64,000 nt of DNA from Phycisphaerae bacterium. Its GTDB lineage: Bacteria; Planctomycetota; Phycisphaerae; JAJVII01. A model generated the notes under the pieces. The model was not told where the DNA came from, did not search any database, and was given only the letters and a program-made list of their open reading frames with translations. The stretch lies in the NCBI GenBank assembly GCA_022072085.1, contig JAJVII010000015.1, positions 124,001 through 188,000 of the forward strand, given 5' to 3'. This document shows, piece by piece, positions 4,058-51,098 of the stretch (the stretch's first letter is position 1; the number at the start of each line of letters is the position of its first letter). The translations under genes were made by a program, and so were the position numbers.

Positions 4058-5191
4058 ATGGACCATGCCTCGCTCATCAGCAAACGGTCAGCGGCAGTCA
4101 ACGCCAGCGGCATCCGCAAGGTGTTCGACCTGGCAGCCGACCTCAAGGATCCGATCAACCTCTCGATCGGCCAACCCGACTTCGACGTGCCCGACGCGAT
4201 CAAGTCGGCAGCGGTCGAGGCCATCCAGGCCGGCTTCAACCGCTACACTCAGACGCAGGGGACCGGCGAGCTGCGCGAGGCGCTCGCCGCCCGCTTGGCG
4301 ACGCGTCCCGGCTGGGAGAAGCCCTCGGTGCTGGTCACCAGCGGCGTCTCCGGCGGGCTGATGCTCGCGTTCATGGCCCTGCTGGACGCCGGCGACGAAG
4401 TCATCGTGCCTGACCCGTACTTCGTCATGTACAAGCACCTGGTGCGGCTGGTCGGGGCCAAGCCGGTCTTCGTGGACACCTACCCCGACTTCCGGCTGGA
4501 CGCGGCCCGCGTCGAGGCCGCCATCACCGAGCGGACCAAGCTGATCCTCGTCAACTCGCCGGCCAACCCGACGGGCAAGGTAGCGTCGGCCGACGACCTG
4601 CGGGCGGTGCTGGAGGTGGCCCGCCGGCGCGGCGTGCTGGCGCTGTCGGACGAAATCTACGACGAGTTCAACTACGACGGCGACTTCGTGTCGGCGGCGA
4701 CGCTCGCGGGGCCCGACGAACTGATCCTGCTGGGCGGCTTCTCCAAGACCTACGGCATGACCGGCTGGCGGATGGGCTACGCCGCCGGCCCGCGGCGGAT
4801 CGTCGAGGAGATGACCAAGCTCCAGCAGTACACCTTCGTCTGCGCCCCGTCGATGGTGCAGGCGGCCGGCCTCGAGGCGCTGCGGACCGACATGAGCGGG
4901 CACATCGCCGCCTACGGCCGAAAGCGAGACCTGATCTACGAGGCCCTGCGCAAGGACTTCGACGTCGAGCGGCCGGGCGGGGCGTTCTACATCTTCCCCG
5001 CGGCGCCGGGCGGATCGGCGACGGCGTTCGTGGCCAAGGCCATCGCCAACAACGTGCTCATCATCCCCGGCTCGGTCTTCAGCGAACGCGACACGCACTT
5101 CCGGATCAGCTTCGCGACGACCGAAGCCAAGCTGGCTGAGGGAGCGGCCGTCCTCTGCCGCCTGGCCCGGGAAATGAAGTCGGGCGGCTGA
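4058..5191 (+). CDS. Class I/II (aspartate family) PLP-dependent aminotransferase
   Basis: A cytoplasmic aminotransferase of fold type I, 377 residues, the usual length. Visible family marks are SIGQPDFDVP near the N-terminus, NSPANPTGK around residue 167, the DEIYDEF aspartate region, and the PLP-binding lysine K230 in GGFSKTYGMTGWRMGY. The C-terminal arginine motif appears as FRISFATT. The overall pattern fits aspartate/aromatic aminotransferases of subgroup I-gamma, but the amino-acid substrate cannot be read from sequence. GGGAGA precedes the ATG, and a weak TTGCAG/TACCAT pair lies at 3999-4028. It is followed by a 400-base gap with inverted repeats, so it is probably transcribed separately from the acyl-carrier locus downstream. 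Confidence 0.9.
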   Translation: MDHASLISKRSAAVNASGIRKVFDLAADLKDPINLSIGQPDFDVPDAIKSAAVEAIQAGFNRYTQTQGTGELREALAARLATRPGWEKPSVLVTSGVSGGLMLAFMALLDAGDEVIVPDPYFVMYKHLVRLVGAKPVFVDTYPDFRLDAARVEAAITERTKLILVNSPANPTGKVASADDLRAVLEVARRRGVLALSDEIYDEFNYDGDFVSAATLAGPDELILLGGFSKTYGMTGWRMGYAAGPRRIVEEMTKLQQYTFVCAPSMVQAAGLEALRTDMSGHIAAYGRKRDLIYEALRKDFDVERPGGAFYIFPAAPGGSATAFVAKAIANNVLIIPGSVFSERDTHFRISFATTEAKLAEGAAVLCRLAREMKSGG

Positions 5192-5594
5192 CGAAGAGGA
5201 ACACGGATTGCACCGATTGACGCGGATTGCACGGATGGAAGAAGGTCTTGGGCTTCTCCCCAGCCCCTCCCTCTCTCGGTGAAATCCGTGCCCCATCCGT
5301 GTAATCCGTGTTCCTCCCCCGCGGCCGTCCGGGCGGGGCGGGCCCGAATCGAACCTTAACGGGCCTTGAAATTCCATCCGGCGGCGGGTAAAAAGTTCGC
5401 TTCGCCGCCTCCGGGCATGTCCGGAGGGTAGCGCGAGGGGCGTCCGGCATCCGTTTTGGCGGACCGGCCCGGGCGCAAATGTGTGGAAAAGGGCCTGTTG
5501 TTCAATACAATACGCGGCTTGTGCAGGGCGGCCCGGCGGCGTCCGGCCCGACGGCGGTTGGAACCGATTCGAAACTGGAACCAGGACGGCCTGG
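5192..5594. other. Intergenic region of 403 bases with an inverted-repeat block
   Basis: The first third is the inverted repeat at 5196-5316. The remaining 280 bases up to the start codon at 5595 contain no convincing gene; the short open frames there have no ribosome-binding site and no recognisable product. Confidence 0.6.
5196..5316. repeat. Inverted-repeat block built from ACGGATT-type short-period repeats
   Basis: A 14-base arm GAGGAACACGGATT (5196-5209) is repeated inverted at 5303-5316. Both arms continue into degenerate copies of a 7-9 base unit of the type CACGGATT. The interior of about 65 bases is not coding. It resembles the other short-period inverted blocks at 6581, 11061, 13981 and 27215. 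Confidence 0.75.
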
Positions 5595-9975: not shown

Positions 9976-11049
9976 ATGCACCAGCCTTTCGCCAGTGCGC
10001 TTGCCACCGGATTCTGGACGCATGTCCAGTGGAACTGGGCCCTGCTGTCGATCCTGGGCACACTGTTCACCGTCATCCTGCTGTCGGCGCTGATCCTGGC
10101 CCGCTACGTCCGCATCCTGCTGAACATCCTCCAAGACACCCCCCCGCCGCTGTCGATGGGCCCGCTGGACTTCCAGCGGCTGGAAGGCGAGCAGGTGCAG
10201 TTCCGCGCCGCCGACGGCGTCAGCCTGCGCGGCATGTTCCTCTACGCCGGCCGCAACAAGCCGCGCAAAGGCATGATCGTCTTCTGCCACGAGTTCGGCA
10301 GCGACATGTACAGCTGCGCCCGCTACTGCCGCCCGCTGCTGGAGTCCGGGTTCGACGTGTTCACCTTCGACTTCCGCGGCCACGGGCGGTCGAGCAACCA
10401 GCCCGGCTACATCCCCCGCCAGTGGGCCAGCGAGCGCGAAGTCAACGACGCCATCGGCGCGTTCGCCTACGTCCAGAGCGTGCTCGCCGGCGAAGGGCTG
10501 CCCGAGGAGATCGGCGTGTTCGGGATCAGCCGCGGCGCCGGGGCGGCCATCCTGGCGATGGAACGCAACGAAACGGTCAAGTGCGTGCTCGGCGACGGGA
10601 CCTTCTCGACCGACGTGACCATCGAGAGCTTCATGAAGAAGTGGGCCAAGATTTTCGCCAAGGTCCGCATCGTCTACGAGAACCACCCGCCGGCGTTCTG
10701 GAAATTCCTCCGCTGGCTGGTTTTCCTGTTCGCCCACCGCCGCTTCAAGTGCCGGTTCCCCTCGGTCCGCAAGGCCATCGCCCGGATGAGCCCGCGTCCG
10801 ATGTTCTTCATCCACGGCGAGCGGGACAGCTACATCCGCCCGGACCAGACGAAGTACCTCTACGCCCTGGCGCCGCAGCCCAAGTTCCTCTGGATCATCC
10901 CCCGGGCCAAGCACAACCAAGGCGTCGCGATCGCCCCCGACGAATACCGCCAGCGGACCGTCGCCTTCTTCGAGTGGTTCCTCGCCGGCAACGAGTCCTC
11001 GATGGAATACGTCGAGGCCCTCACCCCCTCGATCGTCGACGTGGCCTGA
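9976..11049 (+). CDS. Membrane-anchored alpha/beta hydrolase
   Basis: A 357-residue serine hydrolase. One N-terminal transmembrane helix (about residues 21-45, WALLSILGTLFTVILLSALI) anchors it. The hydrolase fold follows, with the oxyanion region FCHEFGS, FDFRGHG, the nucleophile elbow GISRGAG (S185), a probable acid Asp in HGERDSY and the catalytic His in KHNQG. The substrate is unknown. Position after the ketosynthase suggests thioesterase-, lipase- or acyltransferase-like release of the acyl product, which is inference. AGGACGAG precedes the ATG. It is the last gene before the short repeat element at 11061. Confidence 0.85.
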   Translation: MHQPFASALATGFWTHVQWNWALLSILGTLFTVILLSALILARYVRILLNILQDTPPPLSMGPLDFQRLEGEQVQFRAADGVSLRGMFLYAGRNKPRKGMIVFCHEFGSDMYSCARYCRPLLESGFDVFTFDFRGHGRSSNQPGYIPRQWASEREVNDAIGAFAYVQSVLAGEGLPEEIGVFGISRGAGAAILAMERNETVKCVLGDGTFSTDVTIESFMKKWAKIFAKVRIVYENHPPAFWKFLRWLVFLFAHRRFKCRFPSVRKAIARMSPRPMFFIHGERDSYIRPDQTKYLYALAPQPKFLWIIPRAKHNQGVAIAPDEYRQRTVAFFEWFLAGNESSMEYVEALTPSIVDVA

Positions 11050-11060
11050 CGCGAATTCCT

Positions 11061-11160
11061 GATTTCAGATTTTCGATTTTCGATTCCCATGCGGCGGGCC
11101 TTGCGAGATGGGGGCGCCTCTTCAATCGAGAATCTTCAATCCAAAATCTGAAATCCGATT
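11061..11160. repeat. Gene-free short element with GATTTCAG-type terminal inverted repeats
   Basis: The left end GATTTCAGATTTT (11061-11073) returns inverted at 11143-11155, and both arms continue as degenerate ATTTTCGATT-type units. About 60 bases of unrelated DNA lie inside. The left 27 bases are nearly the same as the left end of the element at 13981, which carries a gene; this copy looks like its gene-less miniature. Confidence 0.7.
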
Positions 11161-11211
11161 TGCGCACCGAGCCACTGGCGTCTTTGCCTGCATTCGTGAT
11201 ACGCTGCCCGC

Positions 11212-13980: not shown

Positions 13981-14443
13981 GATTTTAGATTTCAGATTTC
14001 CGATTTTCGATATCGGAGCGGGACCTGCGTATAAGGGGGATGCCTCCGTGGATGAGGCTTCATTCAAGGACCGGACGAAGCGGTTTGCGCTGCGGGTTAT
14101 TCGGCTCGTGGAAGCCCTGCCTGAAACGAAGACGGCCCGCGTGATCGGCAACCAGCTTCTGCGGTGCGGCACGTCGGTCGGAGCCAATTATCGTGCCGTT
14201 TGCCGAGCCCGCTCGCGGAAGGATATGATTGCGAAACTCGGAATCGTGCTGGAAGAGGCCGACGAGTCGCTGTATTGGATGGACTTGCTCGCGGAGGCCG
14301 GATTGATGGAAACCCGGCGGCTGGCCGATCTGATAAAGGAAGGCGGCGAACTGGTGGCCATGACCGTCGCGTCGATCAAGACGCTGCGGTCCGGACGGCC
14401 CCGTTCGGGAAAATCCGAAATCTAAAATCTGAAATCTAAAATC
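13981..14443. mobile_element. IVS-like element: inverted repeats flanking a four-helix-bundle gene
   Basis: Perfect 19-base inverted repeats, GATTTTAGATTTCAGATTT at 13981-13999 and its complement at 14425-14443, bound a 463-base unit carrying one small gene (14048-14425). It fills the gap between two larger genes exactly, starting three bases after one stop and ending two bases before the next start. The layout matches the intervening sequences known from some bacterial 23S rRNA genes, which carry an S23-family reading frame between inverted repeats, but here the unit lies outside rRNA. I see no clear target-site duplication. Confidence 0.75.
14048..14425 (+). CDS. Four-helix-bundle protein of the 23S rRNA intervening-sequence (S23) family
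   Basis: A 125-residue all-helical protein of the TIGR02436/S23 type. Diagnostic stretches are the N-terminal FALRVIRLVEALP, the central QLLRCGTSVGANYRAVCRARS and the C-terminal EADESLYWMDLLAEAG. Structures of relatives (including Avd of diversity-generating retroelements) are pentameric, positively charged four-helix bundles; the cellular role of stand-alone members is unknown. The start is taken as GTG 14048, seven bases after AAGGGGG; the open frame extends upstream only into the preceding methyltransferase gene and the repeat. The stop codon TAA is formed by the terminal repeat of the element (GAAATCTAAAATC). Confidence 0.85.
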   Translation: MDEASFKDRTKRFALRVIRLVEALPETKTARVIGNQLLRCGTSVGANYRAVCRARSRKDMIAKLGIVLEEADESLYWMDLLAEAGLMETRRLADLIKEGGELVAMTVASIKTLRSGRPRSGKSEI

Positions 14444-23514: not shown

Positions 23515-24621
23515 ATGTCATCCCGGCCGCGCCCCCTGCTGACGTTCGCGATGATCGCCCTCTGCTCGCTCCCCGCCGTCGCCCAGGACCAGCCGGCCCC
23601 GCCGGACCCCGCCGGGCCGCAGGCGGCGCCCGAGCCGCAGCGCCCGCCGCTGCCGGACCTGGACCAGCCCGTGCCGCCTGACAAGGTGGCCGTCATGAAG
23701 GGCATGATGCAGGCGGGCCTGATCGGGATGCCCGTGCAGATCGCCAAGCGGTATAGCCTGACGGACGATCAGAAGACGCAGGCGACGGCGATCGTGCAGA
23801 ACTTCTGGGCCGGCGTGGACGAGAACGACAAAGAGCAACTCTTGCGAGTGATGTATTACTCCCGCACGCTGGTGGAGTCCGGCCAGGCCAAGCCCGAGCA
23901 TTTCCAGCGGCTGTCGTCTGACGCGCTGCCGGTCGTCGAGCGGCTGTTTCAGCAGATGGAGAACTCCAGCAAGCAGTTCGAGGCCATCCTGGACGATCAG
24001 CAGCGGGTGAAGTTCGAAGCGGACATGGAGGATTTCAGGACCGGCCAGCAGCAGGTCATCGAGCGGGCGAAGCTGGTGGCCAGCGGCGAAGTGCAGCTCG
24101 GCCCCAACGGCGAGCCCGCTGACGGCTGGCCAAACGAGGACATCAACGCCGTGCGCGTGCGGCAGGAGGAGGTCGTCGAGACCGACGCCGACGGCAACGA
24201 GGTCCGCCGATCGGTCACGCGGATTCGCAGCAAGCTGCCCACGCGGGCCGTGGTGGCCGCCGACGAGCGCTACTGGACGGCCTACGTGAAGGGCTTCATC
24301 GCGAAGTACGGGCTGAACAAGGAGCAGACCGCCCAGGCCCGGCGGCTGCTGGGCGACGCGATCACGCGGGCGCGGGAATACCGCAGGGCCAACAAGGCCC
24401 GGTTCGCCGAACTGGCTGACCGCCGCAAGCGTGACGAAGCCGAGAAGAACGTCCTGGACCTCGAACAGCTCCAGAAGGAGGAGGCCCGCATCGCCCAGCC
24501 GATCGTCAACCTCTTCGACGACATGGATCGCCAGCTCCAGAAGCTTCCGACCGAGCAACAGCGCGCCGGCGGCGCCGACCGCGGCACGTTGCTGAAGGAA
24601 GAGAAGAAAGACGGCAACTAA
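23515..24621 (+). CDS. Exported helical protein, function unknown
   Basis: A 368-residue exported protein. The signal peptide spans about residues 1-23 (LLTFAMIALCSLPAVAQ). A Pro-rich linker follows, then a long helical, Gln/Glu/Arg-rich body with repeated stretches such as YSLTDDQKTQATAIVQNFW and YGLNKEQTAQARRLLGDA. These look like two related segments ending in coiled-coil-like helices. Proteins of this general design are common in planctomycetes, but I can give no function. TTGGAG precedes the ATG. The stop codon TAA is part of the CTAAG end of the palindromic element at 24618. Confidence 0.75.
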   Translation: MSSRPRPLLTFAMIALCSLPAVAQDQPAPPDPAGPQAAPEPQRPPLPDLDQPVPPDKVAVMKGMMQAGLIGMPVQIAKRYSLTDDQKTQATAIVQNFWAGVDENDKEQLLRVMYYSRTLVESGQAKPEHFQRLSSDALPVVERLFQQMENSSKQFEAILDDQQRVKFEADMEDFRTGQQQVIERAKLVASGEVQLGPNGEPADGWPNEDINAVRVRQEEVVETDADGNEVRRSVTRIRSKLPTRAVVAADERYWTAYVKGFIAKYGLNKEQTAQARRLLGDAITRAREYRRANKARFAELADRRKRDEAEKNVLDLEQLQKEEARIAQPIVNLFDDMDRQLQKLPTEQQRAGGADRGTLLKEEKKDGN

Positions 24622-24903
24622 GAATCTATCTCAATTGCCACACGGGTCGCGACGACGGGTATTGCGGTCGCGGCCAAGGAGTCGAGGAGGAGTCGATACG
24701 AGATTGAGTATCGTCGACGACGAGCGACGCCGGCCGCGACCGCAAGACCCGCCGTCCCGGCGGGTTGGGCCACAAAGGGCCCGTCTGCGGCGTCGCCGCT
24801 CCTCGACGATGCTCCGTCCCGCATCGACTGCGTCGCGGCTTCTGGCATCCGGGCCCTTTGCGGCCCAACGCGATCCCGTGTGGCAATTGAGATAGATTCT
24901 AAG
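24618..24903. repeat. Long palindromic element (CTAAG-flanked) with multi-stem interior
   Basis: The ends are CTAAG (24618-24622) and CTAAG (24899-24903). Perfect 26-base inverted arms occupy 24621-24646 and 24875-24900; the 17 bases next to each pentamer are AATCTATCTCAATTGCC and its complement. The arms run into the family core (ACACGGGTCGCG at 24640-24651). The interior folds into two further stems: a perfect 14-base stem (24662-24675 with 24732-24745) and a 19-base stem with one mismatch (24765-24783 with 24850-24868). It would form a three-way junction as single strand or RNA. No protein is encoded convincingly. Confidence 0.85.
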
Positions 24904-40768: not shown

Positions 40769-42004
40769 ATGCCACACCCATCGCTGCACCGGATCGTGCT
40801 TCGCGTAGCCGTCGTGGCAACGTTGACGCTGGGCCTGCTGGCCCTGCCGGCGGCTTCGGCCCTGGCCCAGCCGGCGCAGACCCCGGCAACGACGACGGCG
40901 ACAACCAAGACCTTCAGCGTCGGCGAGATTCAGAAGATGCTCGACCAGAAGGTTCGACCGATGACGGTCCGCAACGGGCAGCTGCTGAAGGTGCTGGCGG
41001 ACATTGAGTCGGCCGCTGACAGCAGCGGCCGATGGCTCGAGGTCCCGGCCCGCACGCTGGGCTGCCTGCCCTACGGCGACAAGACGCCGATCGCGTTCAA
41101 CACCACCGGCAACCAGACCGGCCGCGAACTGCTGGCCACGCTGCTTGACGCCGCAAACCTGACCTGGCAGATCGACGAGACCGGCGAAGGCAAGGCCATG
41201 CTCCGCGTGCTGCCGCGGCCCGAACTGGTGCGGATCGGCCGACGCGCAACGATCGACGAGGTCGAACTGCTGCGCGTCCTGCGGCACGAGACGGTGAAGG
41301 CCAACAAGACCTCGCTGAAGGCCCAGATTCAGGCCGCGGCGCAGCGGCACGTCGATTTCCTCTACGACGTCACCGGCGAAGACGCCGCGCAGGCCAGCAA
41401 GGACATCAACGACTCGGCGGCCAACATGCCCGAGTCGCCCTTCACCGGCGTGCTGGACCAGGTCTGCGCCGAGCATCGCTGGGCGTGGCGCGTCGACCAG
41501 AGCACCATCTGCGTGGTGGATCGTCCCAAGCAGATCATCCACCAGCTCCAGCGGACGGTCGTCGTGCAGTGGAAGAGTGCGCCGCTGGACGAGGCCCTTG
41601 TCGAACTGGGCGAGGCGTCGGGCGTGCTGGTGCAGTTCCAGCCGGCCATGATGGAAGGCGTCGAGGAGCAGAACCAGCGGATCACCTCGATGGACACGTC
41701 GCGGCGGACCATCCTTCAGACCATCGAAACGGTGTCGGCCCGCACGGGGCTGGCCTACGAAGTTCGCGAGGATTCGCTCTACTTCTTCGCGCCGCGGCTG
41801 CACTCAGGCCGCATCGACCCGGTGATCGGCATGTATCAGATGCCGCTGACCGGCGGCGGGTCGGTCAACCTGTTCCTGCGAAAGTCGATGCTGCCCGAAG
41901 ACGTCCAGCCCCTGGTGGACAAGCGTCTGGAGAAGGCCGCCGCCGAGATGGCTGACCAGCTGCGCAAGTCGGCCGCCGACGCCCCGCCGACGGCGAATCC
42001 TTAG
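40769..42004 (+). CDS. Exported protein with two STN/secretin-N-like domains
   Basis: A 411-residue exported protein with a signal peptide (about residues 1-34, ending ASALAQ). Two regions of secretin/TonB short N-terminal (STN) type are visible: about residues 60-140 (GRELLATLLDAANLTWQID) and about 265-345 (VVQWKSAPLDEALVELGEASG and ILQTIETVSARTGLAYEV). No beta-barrel follows, so it is not a secretin or TonB receptor. Position after sigma and anti-sigma genes suggests a sensing or envelope role. AAGGAAG precedes the ATG. The stop codon TAG is formed by the CTTAG end of the half-palindrome at 42000. Confidence 0.75.
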   Translation: MPHPSLHRIVLRVAVVATLTLGLLALPAASALAQPAQTPATTTATTKTFSVGEIQKMLDQKVRPMTVRNGQLLKVLADIESAADSSGRWLEVPARTLGCLPYGDKTPIAFNTTGNQTGRELLATLLDAANLTWQIDETGEGKAMLRVLPRPELVRIGRRATIDEVELLRVLRHETVKANKTSLKAQIQAAAQRHVDFLYDVTGEDAAQASKDINDSAANMPESPFTGVLDQVCAEHRWAWRVDQSTICVVDRPKQIIHQLQRTVVVQWKSAPLDEALVELGEASGVLVQFQPAMMEGVEEQNQRITSMDTSRRTILQTIETVSARTGLAYEVREDSLYFFAPRLHSGRIDPVIGMYQMPLTGGGSVNLFLRKSMLPEDVQPLVDKRLEKAAAEMADQLRKSAADAPPTANP

Positions 42005-42034
42005 AATCTATCTCAATTGCCACGCGGGATCGCC
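42000..42034 (+). repeat. Half copy of the palindromic element family
   Basis: CTTAG (42000-42004), the 17 bases AATCTATCTCAATTGCC (42005-42021, identical to the arm of the 24618 element) and the core-like ACGCGGGATCGC are present. No inverted partner follows within the next 70 bases, so only one side remains or was ever inserted. Confidence 0.75.
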
Positions 42035-43456: not shown

Positions 43457-43515
43457 CTTAGAACGCGTATGAAAACCTACGCGGGTCGCGTGTAGATTTT
43501 CATACACGCTCTTAG
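43457..43515. repeat. Complete short palindromic element, CTTAG-flanked
   Basis: The layout is CTTAG (43457-43461), 17-base arm AACGCGTATGAAAACCT, 15-base core ACGCGGGTCGCGTGT (43479-43493), complementary arm AGATTTTCATACACGCT, and CTTAG (43511-43515). The arms pair at 14 of 17 positions. Total length is 59 bases, with the same spacing as the copy at 48285 but different arm sequences. Confidence 0.85.
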
Positions 43516-43522
43516 ACTGCAC

Positions 43523-43528
43523 TATAAT
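43523..43528 (+). promoter_or_regulatory. -10 box upstream of the AsmA-like gene
   Basis: A perfect TATAAT lies eight bases after the palindromic element. The best -35 candidate (TTCATA, 43499-43504, 18 bases away) lies within the right arm of the element, so the element may contribute to the promoter. Confidence 0.35.
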
Positions 43529-43581
43529 GACTGGTTGAGAGCAATCGGTTTCGCGCAAGTCTCCTGGCGACGGGGCCGGCC

Positions 43582-46500
43582 ATGGCACGCGGGCAATCAA
43601 CAGCAACATCGTCGGACGCCGCGCGCCCGCGGCGGCGCAGGCGGCCTTGGCCGGTGCGCTGCTTCCGCGGCACGCTGGCGCTGGCGATGCTGCTGGCGGC
43701 CGCCTACGTCACGCTGCCCTGGTGGCTGCCCACCGACTGGCTGCACGGCCGCATCGTCAGCCAACTCCAGCACGACCTGAACCGCAAAGTCTACCTCCGC
43801 TCGGTCCGCGTAAGCTGGTCCGAAGGCGTCGTGCTGGAAGACCTTCGGATCGCCCGCGGGCCGGGCTACGGCGAAGGCGATCTGCTCCGTGTCGGCCGTG
43901 TGCAGGCGCCCTTCACGCCGCTGCGGACCTGGCTGACCGGCCACGTCCTGCGCCTGGAGCTGAGCGACTGCGATCTGACCGTGGTCCGCGACGCCGGCGG
44001 CCGCCTCAACCTGGGCGAGCTGAAGCTGCCCGAGATGTCGCTGAAGTTCGACCGCTTCACGTGTGACCAGGCCCGCGTTCGGCTGATCAACCTCAAGAGC
44101 AGGCAGAACGCGTCGATCGACCTGCCCGATCTCAGCTTCGCCGCCGATCCCGCGACCGGACGGATGCTCTTCTCGGGCGCCGCCAGCGTCGCCTATGTCT
44201 CCGGGCCCGGCAGCGAGAGCACGCAACTCGGCTACCTGTCGGCCGATGCCGACATACTCAGCCGACCCGACGCCGCGACCGCCGCCGGCGGCAGCGTGCA
44301 GCCCGGCGGCAAGGTGCGGCTGAGCTGGCGGACCGTCGATCTCAAGAGCCTGACGGTTCACGACTGGCAGGCGGCCCATGCGATCGGCCTGCGCCGGCTC
44401 AGCGGGAAGTGCGGCGGCACATTGGCGCTGACGCTCACCCCGCAAGGCCGCATCGAGTGGACGCTGGACGCCCGCGTGCAGGAGATGGAGGTCGATCTGG
44501 CGTCGCGGCCGCACCGGCTGCACGTGCCGGCCGGGCGGTTCTTCCTCGAAGGCCTGTACGACACGCCCAGTGACACGATCACGCTCGGCCAGTTGCGGAC
44601 GGAACTGCCCGGCGTCGACCTCCAGGCCTCGGTCGAGTATCGCCCCAACGACGCCAACGTCCTGCGGCTTCAGGTCGCCGACGCCCGGCTGCGGCCGGAG
44701 CTGATCGCCCGGGTATCGCCGGACCTGATGAGCTGGCTGCCGCCGCAGTGGCGGCTCTCCGGCGAGTTGCGGCTGACCGGGAAGATCGAGCTGGCCGACA
44801 CGTTCCAGGACCTCAACCTGCGCGTCGATGCGACGGACCTCGGCGCCGCAATCCCCGGCTGGGTGGACAAGCCGGCCGGGCGGTCGGCCGAGCTTGACGT
44901 GCAGGCCCACTACCAGCAGGACCGCGACCGGCTGAACGTGCCCAGGATCTCACTCCAGATCGGCCGCAGTCGCCTGACGCTCTCCGCAGTCGCCGACAGC
45001 CTGTTTCCCATCCTGTCCGGCCGACTCCGCGTGTGGGACGTCTGGCTGAACTGGCTGGCCGAACTGGACATCGACGCCCCGGATGCCAGCGATCTGCTCG
45101 ACCGCCTGCCCGTGCTCCGCCGCGCGATGGGCGACGCGACGCTGGCCGGCCCGGTCAAGGCCCAGGTTCGTTTCGAGCCGCTGATCCGCGAGCGCCGGTT
45201 CGAGCAGGTCGTGCTCGGGCGCGAGCTGTCCGCCTCGCTGGACTTCGCGCCCCAGTCCGCGCTGCGCATCCCCTGCCCGACGCCCGACGCCCCGCCGGCG
45301 ATCGACAAGCCGCCCGGGCGGCCGCTGGCCCTGTCGATTCGGCTGCCCTTCGCGCCCGACAGCATGACGGTGCACGACGGCCAGCTCGTCATTCGCGAAG
45401 GCGTCGTGACCGACGCCGACGCTGGCCGCATTGCGCTGGCCCCGCTGTCTGGCAAGCTCGCTGTCAGCCGACCTCCGCCAGGCCAGAGCCTCCAGCGCGT
45501 CGACCTGGTGCTGGACGGCAACCTGATCGGCCGAAATGTTGAACAATTCGTCGGGCTGATGCCCTGCCTACGCGACGCGCTAGCCGAGAACGACGCGGAC
45601 CTCTCCGGCGGGTTCGACGGGGAACTGAACGTCCGGCTGGGCGGTCCGCAACTGCGGACCCGGCTGCGCCTGGACCTCGATCGGCTGGCTGTCCGCGTCG
45701 GCGGCGAACGCCTGCTGCGGACCATCGGCCACGAGCACCGCGCCACCGGCGACGCGGCTGTCCCTCCGCCCGCCGGCGCGATCCTGATCAAGCGGGCCGA
45801 CGAACCAGCCCGGCTGGAGATCAACTACTCCGGCGTCCTGCTCGGGCAGGGCGCCCGCAGTTTCCTGCCCGCGCAGATCGACTTCGCAGGCCTGGGCCTG
45901 TCCCTGCACACCGAGGGCAACCTGGTCGACCTGGGCGACCCGCAGTGCGCGACGCTTCATATCGACGACGTCCGCCACGTGCTGGCGCACTTCCCCGTGC
46001 TGGCTGACGAACTGGGGGCCCTCAAGCTGCACGAGGGGTCAGCCGACCTGCGGATCGGCTGGCTGCCCGGCGAGCCCGACGACATGACGCTCGCCATCGA
46101 CGCGACAAAGCTGGGTTTCTCGCTGCCCGCGCCCTGGGGCGGGAGCAAGGCAGCCGGCGTGCCGCTGTCTCTGAATGCGCGATTCACGACCAACCTGCCC
46201 GACGGTCCGGTGAGCCCGTGGATCAACGTCCGCCGAGGCGTCGTGCAGTCCGGCGACAGCCGCGTCGGATTCAGCGGGCTGGTCGTGCTGTTGCCGGTGC
46301 TGTGGGGGTCGGCCAGCCCGCCGCCCATCGACCAGGTGAACCTGAAGGTCGGCGGCCGACTGTCGGCTGACAGCCAGCTCCGCACGCTGCTGCCGACGCT
46401 GGCCGACTGGCTGGACGCCCGCGGCGTCAGCGGCGGCGTGACGTTTCTGACGCAACTGACCGGCGGGTGGGAGGAACTCCACCTGACCACCGACCTGGAC

Positions 46501-48228
46501 GCGCGGGACATGGCGATACGCATCCCGGGCGGGCTGGACAAGCGTGCCGGCGTCGCCGCCGGCGGCCGCATCGACCTGACCGTCAATCCGTCCGGCTGGT
46601 CGCTCTGGCAGATCAACGACCTGCGCGGGCAACTGGCCGACATCGCCTTCGCCGCGTCCGGCCAGGCCCGGCGGCAGACCGGTTCGCTCACGGCTGCCAA
46701 CTGGAACCTGCGACTGGACCTGAACGTGCCGGACCTGGGGCAGTTGTCCGAGTTGTTCCCGGCGATACTCTCCAACCGCGACTTCCTCGGCGGGCCACTC
46801 TCGGGCAGCGTCGCCTGCAACCTGCACCTGTTCGACGACGGGCAGCGCGAGCAATGGGCCAGCCGCTCCCTGCTGGGCTGGGCCCGCATGCTGCCCAGCC
46901 GCATGGACCTCCACGACGTGCGCTGCAAGCTGGCCGATTCGCCGGTCGCGATCGACGGCAGCCTTTCGCTCAGCGACCAGGCCGTCGGCAGCCCGCGGCT
47001 GCGATTGGCGCAGGGTCCCAACCGCGTCGCGGTCGCCTTCAACGTGAGCAACCCCGTCACGCATCCGATCGACCAGGACATCCAGGTCGTCGGGCGGCAC
47101 GTGGACATCGACGAGTTCCACGCATTCTGGACGCGGCTGCGTTCGCTGCCGTGGCCGTCTGCCGATGCCGGTCCGGCGGCCGCGCTGGCTGCCCCCTCCC
47201 CCGCCCGCGTCAGGACCGCGCAGGCCGCCGGCAGCATCGCGGTCAGCGGCGCGCGGCGGGCGTTCCAGTCGGTCAGCCAGCCGGTCGGCCCGCCGCTGCG
47301 CGGGCAGGTGGAGAGTCCCGAGCCGGCGCCCATGCCCCAGCGTGACACGGCCCGGCAGATCACCGACTTCGCCGCGCGGTGCGACCTGCGCGGCAGCGTC
47401 CACTTCGAGGAGGTTTACGTCACCGACAGTAAGAACCAGACGCGCTACAAGCTGTCGGAGTTCACCAGCCGATTCTCGCTGGACGACGGGCTGATCGATT
47501 TCCCATTCCAGACGGGGATGGAGGGCGGCACGCTGGACGGCCGCGTCACCTGCAACCTGGCCGACGAAGTCCCGCTGCTCCAGATTCAGTACGAGGCGCG
47601 GCGGCTGTTCCCGACGCAGCGCGTTCACCCGCTGGTCGAGGCGTTTTTCCCGGGCATGACGGTGAACGGTTACGTGACGATGATCGAGAAGAGCCACCAG
47701 AAGCTGCTGCCCGACCCGGGCGAAGCCAACTGGCCGGTCGGCGCGGGGGAGATCATTTTCAACAACGGCATGCTGGTCGGACAGGCGGCGCCCGACTGGA
47801 TGGCCCGCATCTTCCCCGGGCTGAAGTGGAAGGAATACCGCTTCGACCGCATGCACGACTGGTTCGAGCTGACCGCCGACGGGGCGGCACGCCATCACAT
47901 GCTTTTCGATGGGCAGTCCTACGACATCTACATGATCGGCGACACGCACCGCGGCTCGGGCGACGCCCACTACGAGGTCGGCGTGGACCTGCTGGCCAGC
48001 CTGGACTCCAAGACCTGGTCGGTGAACCTCCGCCAGGGGAAGATCCCGATGATGTACGTCGACGGACGCATCGTCAACCGCGAGCTGAAGGAATCGAAGT
48101 TCTCGATGGTCCTGCCGACCTCGGCGCTGTGGAAGATGCTCATCGAGAACAACCTCATCTACCGCGCGGTGGTCGAACTGGCCGCCCGCAAGTCCGCGCA
48201 GGCCCCGGAGAGCCCGCCCGCCCCGTGA
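43582..48228 (+). CDS. Giant AsmA-like envelope protein
   Basis: A 1548-residue protein with a basic N-terminus, one transmembrane helix near residues 30-50 (TLALAMLLAAAYVTLPWWLP) and a very long extracytoplasmic region. The opening after the helix (IVSQLQHDLNRKVYLRSVRVSWSEGVVLEDLRI in outline) is the AsmA/TamB-type start. The body repeats beta-strand segments ending in LxGxLxL-like units; a C-terminal AsmA-like segment includes FNNGMLVGQAAPDW. Such proteins are long beta-taco bridges thought to carry phospholipid between membranes. The assignment rests on architecture more than on identity. A shorter low-complexity linker (about 1190-1260) splits it. Confidence 0.8.
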   Translation: MARGQSTATSSDAARPRRRRRPWPVRCFRGTLALAMLLAAAYVTLPWWLPTDWLHGRIVSQLQHDLNRKVYLRSVRVSWSEGVVLEDLRIARGPGYGEGDLLRVGRVQAPFTPLRTWLTGHVLRLELSDCDLTVVRDAGGRLNLGELKLPEMSLKFDRFTCDQARVRLINLKSRQNASIDLPDLSFAADPATGRMLFSGAASVAYVSGPGSESTQLGYLSADADILSRPDAATAAGGSVQPGGKVRLSWRTVDLKSLTVHDWQAAHAIGLRRLSGKCGGTLALTLTPQGRIEWTLDARVQEMEVDLASRPHRLHVPAGRFFLEGLYDTPSDTITLGQLRTELPGVDLQASVEYRPNDANVLRLQVADARLRPELIARVSPDLMSWLPPQWRLSGELRLTGKIELADTFQDLNLRVDATDLGAAIPGWVDKPAGRSAELDVQAHYQQDRDRLNVPRISLQIGRSRLTLSAVADSLFPILSGRLRVWDVWLNWLAELDIDAPDASDLLDRLPVLRRAMGDATLAGPVKAQVRFEPLIRERRFEQVVLGRELSASLDFAPQSALRIPCPTPDAPPAIDKPPGRPLALSIRLPFAPDSMTVHDGQLVIREGVVTDADAGRIALAPLSGKLAVSRPPPGQSLQRVDLVLDGNLIGRNVEQFVGLMPCLRDALAENDADLSGGFDGELNVRLGGPQLRTRLRLDLDRLAVRVGGERLLRTIGHEHRATGDAAVPPPAGAILIKRADEPARLEINYSGVLLGQGARSFLPAQIDFAGLGLSLHTEGNLVDLGDPQCATLHIDDVRHVLAHFPVLADELGALKLHEGSADLRIGWLPGEPDDMTLAIDATKLGFSLPAPWGGSKAAGVPLSLNARFTTNLPDGPVSPWINVRRGVVQSGDSRVGFSGLVVLLPVLWGSASPPPIDQVNLKVGGRLSADSQLRTLLPTLADWLDARGVSGGVTFLTQLTGGWEELHLTTDLDARDMAIRIPGGLDKRAGVAAGGRIDLTVNPSGWSLWQINDLRGQLADIAFAASGQARRQTGSLTAANWNLRLDLNVPDLGQLSELFPAILSNRDFLGGPLSGSVACNLHLFDDGQREQWASRSLLGWARMLPSRMDLHDVRCKLADSPVAIDGSLSLSDQAVGSPRLRLAQGPNRVAVAFNVSNPVTHPIDQDIQVVGRHVDIDEFHAFWTRLRSLPWPSADAGPAAALAAPSPARVRTAQAAGSIAVSGARRAFQSVSQPVGPPLRGQVESPEPAPMPQRDTARQITDFAARCDLRGSVHFEEVYVTDSKNQTRYKLSEFTSRFSLDDGLIDFPFQTGMEGGTLDGRVTCNLADEVPLLQIQYEARRLFPTQRVHPLVEAFFPGMTVNGYVTMIEKSHQKLLPDPGEANWPVGAGEIIFNNGMLVGQAAPDWMARIFPGLKWKEYRFDRMHDWFELTADGAARHHMLFDGQSYDIYMIGDTHRGSGDAHYEVGVDLLASLDSKTWSVNLRQGKIPMMYVDGRIVNRELKESKFSMVLPTSALWKMLIENNLIYRAVVELAARKSAQAPESPPAP

Positions 48229-48284
48229 ACCGGCGGCTGGGTCTTGATCGCCGCGCCCCGTCTGCGACAATACGCCCGTCTCGA

Positions 48285-48343
48285 CTAAGGGGCTCTAACA
48301 GAACCTACGCGGGTCGCGTGTAGGTTCTGTTAGAGCCCCTAAC
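48285..48343. repeat. Complete short palindromic element, perfect 17-base arms
   Basis: CTAAG (48285-48289), arm GGGCTCTAACAGAACCT (48290-48306), core ACGCGGGTCGCGTGT (48307-48321), exact complementary arm AGGTTCTGTTAGAGCCC (48322-48338), then CTAAC (48339-48343). Length and core are identical to the 43457 copy. It lies 57 bases after the AsmA-like gene and could also act as a transcript-end hairpin, but has no U-tract. Confidence 0.88.
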
Positions 48344-48363: not shown

Positions 48364-49209
48364 ATGCCCCAGAAGATCGAGTTCGTACGCCTCGTCGGAA
48401 CTGAACGCCGCGTCGGTGAGACCCTCGCCTCCGTCTCCCGCCACTGGCGAGGCAAGGACGAGAAGTTCCTCTTCGTCTCCCCGCACGATGACGACGTCGT
48501 CGTCGGCGGCGGGCTGATGATGCAACTGGCCGCCCGCGAGTCGGTCCCCGTGCACCTCCTGGTCGCCACCGACGGCCGCATGGGCTACTGCTCGGCCGAC
48601 GAGCAGCGGGCCATCGCCGACATCCGCCGCCGCGAAACCTACGCCGCCTACGGCAAGCTGGGCGTGCCCGAGGAGCGCATCCACTGGCTCGGCTTTCCCG
48701 ATTGCAGCCTGACGGCGTTCCAGGGCCGTCGGCCCGCGGGCCCGGGCGAGCCCGACATCGCCGGCTACACGGGCCTCCAGAACGCGCTGACTCACATCAT
48801 CCGCAAGGTCGCGCCCAGCCAGATCTTCGTGCCCACATGGGCCGACCTGCACCCCGACCACAAGCTCGTCCACCAGGAGCTGATGATCAGTATCTTCCAC
48901 GCCGGCGGCGACATCTGGCCGGAACTGGGCCCGCCGCTGACGCGCCTGCCCCACGTCACCGAGATGGCCGTCTACTGCGATTTCCCCACGCCGCCGAGCC
49001 TGCGCATCCGCACGGCGCCCGAAATGCTCCAGAACAAGCTGGACGCGATCGCCGCCTTCGCCAGCCAGCGGCAGATCGACCTGGTCGTCCGCACCATCCG
49101 CGACGCCGGGCCGGAGGAGTTTTTCCGCTCGATCGACCTGCGCATGTACCAGCCGGCCCGATATCGCAGCATGTTCGACCAGCCGCAGGGCCTCTATGCC
49201 CTGCCCTGA
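48364..49209 (+). CDS. PIG-L/LmbE-family N-deacetylase
   Basis: A 281-residue zinc-dependent deacetylase of the LmbE type, which removes acetyl groups from N-acetylglucosaminyl compounds. The catalytic and zinc-binding motif is SPHDDDVVVGGG (about residues 39-50), followed by LVATDGRMG and the late zinc ligand in DLHPDHKLVHQE. Length is usual. The substrate may be an envelope glycan, glycolipid or small thiol precursor; nothing nearby decides this. The gene starts 20 bases after the palindromic element. Confidence 0.88.
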   Translation: MPQKIEFVRLVGTERRVGETLASVSRHWRGKDEKFLFVSPHDDDVVVGGGLMMQLAARESVPVHLLVATDGRMGYCSADEQRAIADIRRRETYAAYGKLGVPEERIHWLGFPDCSLTAFQGRRPAGPGEPDIAGYTGLQNALTHIIRKVAPSQIFVPTWADLHPDHKLVHQELMISIFHAGGDIWPELGPPLTRLPHVTEMAVYCDFPTPPSLRIRTAPEMLQNKLDAIAAFASQRQIDLVVRTIRDAGPEEFFRSIDLRMYQPARYRSMFDQPQGLYALP

Positions 49210-50620: not shown

Positions 50621-51081
50621 CGCCCGGCAGCACTGGCATCCCTGATTCGGCGCCGGCCTGCGAAAGCCTGCATTTGCCTGTATGTGCCTGTATCTTAAAT
50701 ATCTGGCGGGCAACAGTTTACAAGATAGCCCGGCCAATGCGATCTGACGCATTCGGCCGGGTCGCCTCGACTCCGGTCGACCAAATCGGCCGCGTCGATC
50801 CTGCGCAAGCAGACACCCCTTAGAACGCAAACGGCCGACGACGTCAGTCCGGCCGACAGTCTGCCGGCTGCCCCGACCGCGCGGCGACTCGACGGACGCA
50901 ACGCGCCGCCGGGTCCGATTACCGTCGCCGAGGGCGGCGGCTTCCCCCCCAACAGCCAGGTGGGCGACCAGGCCTTACGCAAATGGGTGATGTGGGGCCC
51001 GACGACGGCCGACACGCGGCGCTGATCGACCTGCTCCGTGAGTTCGATTCGTTGTTCGCCGGTTAGAAGTCGCTCAAGAAC
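50621..51081. other. Intergenic region of 461 bases with hairpin and possible gene relic
   Basis: It holds a hairpin (50729-50761), an open but undirected coding-like stretch (about 50826-51066) without start signal, and the half palindrome from 51062. In the stretch two frames in succession give plausible protein (ending WVMWGPTTADTRR in one and LIDLLREFDSLFAG in the next), which could be a frameshifted remnant. I cannot name a family for it. Confidence 0.4.
50729..50761 (+). terminator. Hairpin after the kelch-like gene
   Basis: CCCGGCCAATGCG (50729-50741) pairs with CGCATT (50748-50753) and GGCCGGG (50755-50761), with one bulged C and a six-base loop. There is no U-tract, so it may be a Rho-assisted or simply structural end. 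Confidence 0.45.
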
Positions 51082-51098
51082 CTACGCGGGTCGCGTGG
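51062..51098. repeat. Half copy of the palindromic element family at a gene 3' end
   Basis: GTTAG (51062-51066), 17 bases AAGTCGCTCAAGAACCT (51067-51083) and core ACGCGGGTCGCG (51084-51095) keep the family spacing. The expected complementary arm is absent; instead the methyltransferase coding sequence begins, and that gene's stop codon (complement of 51082-51084) lies where arm meets core. Confidence 0.75.

Follow-up and report, generated by a model that had tools for sequence, protein, structure and literature searches.

Short palindromes in a Phycisphaerae genome as probable collapsed copies of a Y-folding miniature element with IS5-type ends

Two 59-base palindromes with different arms around one identical 15-base core, found in a Phycisphaerae genome, very probably belong to a family of miniature inverted-repeat transposable elements (MITEs) of about 275 bp that is moved by IS5-family DDE transposases, and the 59-base copies would be elements with a collapsed interior (probability about 0.83). 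The palindromes lie in the window, i.e. the whole stretch of 64,000 nucleotides that was analysed; its genome is called G000 below, and copies on other contigs are given by contig (C1, C2 and so on).

Results

Copies in the window and in its genome

Both palindromes have the layout and the arm pairing given in the initial annotation.

43457 to 43515, no strand: short, probably collapsed, element, TIR (terminal inverted repeat) type F2, GAACGCGTATGAAAACCTAC / GAGCGTGTATGAAAATCTAC
48285 to 48343, no strand: short, probably collapsed, element, TIR type F3, GGGGCTCTAACAGAACCTAC

The first reads CTTAG-17-ACGCGGGTCGCGTGT-17-CTTAG, with arms matching at 14 of 17 positions, the core at 43479 to 43493 and a target-site duplication (TSD) TTA at 43458 to 43460 and 43512 to 43514 (C-TTA-G...C-TTA-G). 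The second reads CTAAG-17-ACGCGGGTCGCGTGT-17-CTAAC, with arms matching at 17 of 17 positions and a TSD TAA at 48286 to 48288 and 48340 to 48342; it is located 56 nt past the stop of the ORF at 43582 to 48228 and 20 nt ahead of the ORF at 48364 to 49209. In the 5.49-Mb genome, the core ACGCGGGTCGCGTGT has no exact copies besides these two. A scan of the window for arms of 17 bases that flank a centre of 15, with up to three mismatches, finds these two palindromes alone, but Markov sequences yield 0.6 per window at the same loose threshold, so that 14/17 arms are not significant by themselves; what makes the palindromes significant is that they share a core, that one has 17/17 arms and that copies recur across the genome.

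Three further copies in the window keep the 17-base distance between pentamer and core, as had been noted, the pentamer at 51062 reading GTTAG.

24622 to 24899, plus strand: long form, 278 bp, TIR type F1 GAATCTATCTCAATTGCCAC at both ends, Y-folding interior
42000 to 42034, minus strand: lone F1 right end, reversed, CTTAG AATCTATCTCAATTGCC ACGCGGGATCGC
51062 to 51097, plus strand: lone left end with short-form core, GTTAG AAGTCGCTCAAGAACCT ACGCGGGTCGCGTG, TIR variant F5

The copy at 24618 had been listed with the right spacing, although its matching right end was missed, and it is a complete long element: in a scan for direct and inverted repeats, 24618 to 24646 pairs with 24875 to 24903 as a 29-bp inverted repeat (97%), and the element is flanked by TSD TAA at 24619 to 24621 and 24900 to 24902. 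The end at 42000 carries a TSD-like TTA at 42001 to 42003 and has no partner end nearby, and the end at 51062 has lost its right arm.

Copies elsewhere in G000 were sought with queries for the core, the arms and the whole element at relaxed stringency. The genome contains roughly two dozen copies and fragments (32 BLAST pieces), which supports the proposal of a mobile-element family with numerous, arm-matched copies, about two dozen instead of the five first reported. Nine long elements, one of them truncated, were found, at least eight of them besides the copy at 24622 to 24899.

Complete long elements, eight: C1:148618, C6:74830, C12:23826, C16:113100, C23:16580, C23:65081, C28:19314, C41:49765
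Truncated long element: C37
Short palindromes, about six: 43457, 48285, C14, C18, C30 and one in C2
Lone ends: 42000, 51062, C2, C15, C24, C27, C35, C41, C42

The interior common to the long elements starts with ACGCGGGTCGCGACGACGGG and stops with CAACGCGATCCCGYGT, and it is bounded by four types of TIR: F1 GAATCTATCTCAATTGCCAC, F2 GAGCGTGTATGAAAACCTAC, F3 GGGGCTCTAACAGAACCTAC and F4 GAAGCTGTTTCAAAACCTAC.

The window (69% G+C) also contains a second repeat family, unrelated to the Y-elements, of A/T-rich imperfect palindromes at 11041 to 11175 and 13981 to 14443, GATTTTAGATTTCAGATTTTCGATTC with partners GAATCTTCAATCCAAAATCTGAAATC (repeat families D9, I3 and I12). Another inverted repeat (I6) is found at 5181 to 5217 and 5295 to 5331 around ACACGGATTGCACCGAT / ATCCGTGTAATCCGTGT, its halves 77 nt apart.

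Terminal repeats, target duplication and candidate mobilisers

The TIRs comprise 18-20 bp inside a matched arm of about 26-34 bp; they match at 17-18 of 18 positions in the long copies of G000 and are perfect over up to 34-35 bp in relatives. Copies in G000 are flanked by TTA...TTA or TAA...TAA, a few flanks being unequal or degenerate, and some F4 copies have CTAG-like flanks in which TSD and TIR extension are inseparable. These duplications indicate that CTWAG is made up of the target duplication (TWA, or CTAG in relatives) and a terminal base of the element. The suggestion that the pentamer is a duplicated target is thus borne out, on the basis of the flanks and one empty site described below.

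The ends point to IS5-type transposases. An 18-base TIR, GGCACTCTAACAAAACCT, bounds Y-elements in three relatives (G006, G015 and G024) and, with at most one mismatch, insertion sequences of 904 and 903 bp in two genomes of the window's class (G217 and G080), whose products match NCBIfam NF033580 (IS5 family transposase) and Pfam DUF4096 and DDE_Tnp_1; one of the two is flanked by TTA/TTA and the other by TTA/TAA. F3 differs from this TIR at 3 of 18 positions. In G016, F2-like ends, GAGCGTGTTATG, bound an 864-bp IS5 element whose transposase is 29% identical to that of the GGCACTCTAACAAAACCT type, so that the TIR types differ with the IS5 lineage. The arms are therefore transposon ends, an 18-base TIR being common to the Y-elements and IS5-family insertion sequences, which argues against the earlier idea of recognition by core and fold.

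In G000, a search for a DUF4096-type IS5 transposase found none, and the four DDE_Tnp_1 matches there have other ends or none that were recognised. The mobiliser may be absent from this genome, lost or located in unassembled sequence, and mobilisation by IS5 would apply there by extension from the relatives. One candidate, the transposase at C27/C11/C46, was rejected since its ends, TGCTCTGTTCAAA..., do not match. It belongs to a multi-copy insertion sequence at contig ends (C27:44900-45935, C11:137200-137354 and C46:1-220) with inverted ends TGCTCTGTTCAAA, which encodes a DDE_Tnp_1 transposase and has a TIR unrelated to those of the Y-elements. In several genomes the resident IS5 elements likewise do not share their TIR with the resident Y-elements, and IS5/DUF4096 elements of Alphaproteobacteria with Y-elements were rejected as mobilisers for this reason. 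Elements of about 107-155 bp with other interiors (L148, G039:C3:8257-8387; L169, G161:C60; L328, G209:C95:1121-1275) have a TIR in common with Y-elements of the same class, indicating that one TIR type serves several non-autonomous elements.

IS200/IS605 elements have neither matched TIRs at both ends nor a target duplication. Movement of a REP or IS200/IS605-type element as single-stranded DNA by a hairpin-reading tyrosine (HUH) transposase would agree with palindromes, extragenic placement and DNA hairpins stable on both strands. This is nevertheless very improbable for a family with two matched TIRs, a target duplication and TIRs that match IS5-family DDE elements, even though REP families extend to Planctomycetes (PMC3733652).

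The core as a deletion remnant

The copy in C30 has the form of the left and right interior ends joined at a shared CGCG, GGGTCGCGATCCCGCG, and removal of a further six bases (ATCCCG) from this form gives the core of the 59-base copies, ACGCGGGTCGCGTGT. The short copy in C2 has another centre, CTGCGCGATCCCGCGTAG. The 59-base form is found with F2 arms (43457 and C14) and with F3 arms (48285 and C18). The exact core with its CCT is absent from 60 relatives, as fits a deletion remnant.

When the element flanks were compared with all fetched loci by BLAST, one related pair was obtained, L191 (Planctomycetota YP3.bin105) and L240 (WY1.bin60), and it is the one natural filled/empty pair found. At the first site L240 carries a 274-bp element with CTAG on both sides and L191 is empty, ATTCCAGGGAG; the sequences read ATT-CCAG-GGAG in L191 and ATT-CTAG-element-CTAG-GGAG in L240, with one C/T difference. 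The empty site sought by the initial annotation is thus available in this related genome pair, CTAG being duplicated on insertion. At a second site, some dozens of bases from the first, the 278-bp element of L191 corresponds to a 46-bp palindrome in L240, CTAGTGCCCTGTTCCGGCCGTAATTATGGCCGGAACAGGGCACTAG. Since TAATTA is self-complementary, it forms a direct repeat in both arms, between which the interior was lost. The direction at this site was presumably loss rather than gain, because a palindrome is far less likely to have acquired, precisely at its centre, a complete interior typical of the family.

The centres of collapsed copies (C30, C2 and TAATTA) thus differ, indicating that the centre follows the deletion and not a recognition sequence. 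On these sequence comparisons, the "constant core" is a scar of the interior of a ~280-bp element and not a recognition site. An element recognised by a constant core and fold with arms free to vary, as the initial annotation had it, could explain why two copies that differ in their arms have the same core; it is hardly credible given that the core is a joined remnant of the interior ends, that other collapsed copies have other centres and that the arms match IS5 TIRs.

Ends uncoupled from the interior

In G000, interiors are as similar between copies with the same TIR type (95.2% identity) as between copies with different types (95.6%), whereas the arms are 96% identical within a type and 57% between types. 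One reading is that arms never change interiors and that the interiors of old copies with different TIRs were homogenised by gene conversion, as the flat interior identity (93-98%, whatever the TIR type) would allow. Such homogenisation is possible but doubtful, since the copies in C16 (F3) and C37 (F4) alone among long copies have an unusual tip, GATATGTGACCGAATATC, which suggests common descent under different ends, and since F2 as well as F3 arms bound the 59-bp form.

The two arms of a copy change in concert. The copy in C28 has the identical A-to-G change in both arms, and when copies with 85% identity or more are compared, the TIR stem shows 31 distinct both-sided Watson-Crick swaps versus 55 one-sided differences, as against 13 versus 79 in the interior. 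A combination of selection for two like ends and fold-back copying of one arm from the other is favoured; fold-back copying would account for these changes, although like-end selection alone could yield the same pattern.

Distribution and genomic context

Used as a DNA query, the interior has matches (E<=0.001) in 39 of 298 class genomes, many weaker matches being short and maybe due to chance. At most of the stronger class loci examined, the element measures about 244-283 bp and has strong TIRs that are particular to the genome; one family, for example, has CTAGTGCTCTGTCACGCC. Searching with one interior pattern recovered, in named genomes, at least 116 stretches, a few of which are chance matches in coding sequence; they span Planctomycetota, Acidobacteriota and Alphaproteobacteria; the relatives are about 270-286 bp long and have different TIRs and a common Y fold. 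'Actinomycetes bacterium CSMAG_2756' (JAUXAG010000001.1; L199/L200/L242) was not counted as a fourth phylum, as it is probably mislabelled and of the window's class. About 30 of the stretches are elements of 260-290 bp whose TIRs mostly start at a CTWAG- or TAG-like sequence and are otherwise diverse between genomes. Cultured hosts include Sphingomonas lenta (NZ_NSLI01000003) and Stappia sediminis (NZ_WUMV01000005), both Alphaproteobacteria. The interior motif is absent from viral contigs, and the Sphingomonas copy as a query gave no match in phages or plasmids.

With a crude ORF caller, an ORF stop codon lies within 14 nt of the element end in 16 of 45 elements. In the window, the stops of the ORFs at 23515 to 24621 and 40769 to 42004 fall in the duplicated TAA/TAG at 24618 to 24622 and 42000 to 42004, so that these insertions sit at, or create, the stop codon of a gene. 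Because CTWAG itself holds a stop codon, target preference and tolerance at gene ends are inseparable here. A 6S RNA (RF00013, 49.8 bits) is encoded about 80 nt from a Y-element in a relative (L119, G006:C35, 1749-1933, minus strand).

Fold

The element at 24622 to 24899 folds with -187.9 kcal/mol, as compared with -119.3 for shuffled sequence (z -14.4), and the other strand behaves likewise. RNAalifold on 23 elements, chosen at less than 90% identity, gives a Y that consists of the TIR stem, side arms A and B, and a small CCC-loop-GGG hairpin. In this set 63 of 71 pairs show compensatory change, 86.3% of the cells are paired (59.8% when shuffled and at most 41.3% with slid partners), and covariation is 0.669 versus 0.196 +/- 0.011. 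Base pairing is thus maintained by compensatory change across three phyla. Arm A contains four GA/GA steps flanked by G-C pairs, an arrangement suggestive of tandem sheared G-A mismatches. Much of this G-A-rich loop motif was part of the pattern used for the search, so that its invariance in A1 is partly due to ascertainment; among members not picked by the pattern, some have nested chains of two (three once) and others one, shuffled sequence giving about one.

A stable, covarying fold could also mean that selection acts on transcripts of the Y and of the palindromes, i.e. on a structured RNA (regulatory, terminator or mRNA-stabilising), with spread as a by-product. The placement of the elements would suit such a role: among 45 elements with flanks, a crude ORF caller gives both neighbours for 40, and 22 of these have convergent genes on either side and are thus downstream of genes, as against 4 flanked by divergent genes. 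In the stem of arm A, G-T departures exceed A-C departures (85:32, counted regardless of relatedness), as RNA pairing permits, but the two are equal in the TIR stem (87:89) and in the inner arm parts (24:23 and 13:13). The orientation relative to same-strand gene pairs (9 versus 5) is without clear bias, and Rfam gives no match in the window at the gathering threshold and none overlapping elements in six loci at E<=1. Selection as RNA is therefore improbable as the general explanation; the evidence leans to pairing of the TIR stem at the DNA level, and arm A may pair at the RNA level.

Discussion

Relation to known elements

The ~278-bp elements have TIRs, a target duplication, no transposase gene and dispersed copies, as MITEs do, and the sharing of ends with an autonomous element is found in relatives for one TIR type, not within G000. 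They resemble the IS5 family (IS427/IS1031-like) in the 18-base TIR, in relatives, and in the TWA/CTAG duplication, the transposase, with IS5 N-terminal and DDE domains, being encoded by the 903-904-bp elements. They differ from it in that they have IS5-type ends only: they encode no protein, hence no IS5-type DDE transposase of their own, and the Y-folding interior is unrelated to a transposase gene. Their two-sided TIRs and duplications also separate them from REP and IS200-IS605 elements, which have a one-sided tag, no duplication and an HUH transposase.

BrickBuilt of Porphyromonas gingivalis is an IS5-derived MITE that contains a minisatellite and has a single TIR type with varied duplications (PMC4596501). 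Like the window's family it is non-coding, has IS5-family TIRs and is present in several copies per genome, whereas in the window's family the interior is conserved across phyla under many TIR types. Correia/NEMIS, ERIC, RUP, RPE and CIR are small palindromic MITEs with stable folds, TIRs and TA-type duplications (PMC2229807). By their descriptions, Correia/NEMIS, ERIC, RUP and RPE are set apart as mostly single hairpins of 100-200 bp, and CIR (~110 bp) as having two arms without a closing TIR stem (PMC2229807). GTAG/CGTC REPs are extragenic palindromes of many phyla, often downstream of genes, but they are tagged hairpins of 20-40 bp with no TIR pair or duplication, and GTAG REPs are linked to tyrosine transposases (PMC3733652).

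Searches of Rfam and open papers gave no description of the Y interior (ISfinder and the closed literature were outside the search), and literature searches with the motif sequence and for a widespread REP-like motif produced nothing. The remark that no such family had been described therefore holds for Rfam and open papers, although small IS5-derived non-autonomous elements are known as a kind. The unusual part is the conserved, covarying interior common to three phyla under unrelated pairs of ends.

Proposed mechanism and meaning

Insertion, very probably by an IS5-type transposase, duplicates TWA or CTAG, which together with the terminal G/C of the element gives CTWAG. Replication across the fold may then slip from one arm to the other at a short self-complementary word that both contain (TAATTA at the orthologous site, CGCG/CG in G000), so that the interior would be lost and both TIRs kept. 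Arms vary between copies because one interior occurs with the TIRs of several IS5 lineages; within a copy the arms match because the transposase needs two like ends and, presumably, because a folded arm templates its partner. More tentatively, the Y interior might be an evolving module of selfish DNA that crosses phyla and swaps its pair of ends to use the resident IS5-type transposase, with fold-back copying rematching the ends and with a host or transposase factor binding the single strand once it has folded and presents its conserved G-A-rich internal loops.

Short palindromes with a fixed centre and varying arms are explained as collapsed elements. MITEs are usually viewed as worn-out deletion products of one parent transposon, whereas here a protein-less interior outlives its ends. 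As the interior can be recognised in three phyla although the TIRs are unrelated, transposase switching by a non-coding hitchhiker becomes testable, and so does fold-back copying as the keeper of long perfect arms.
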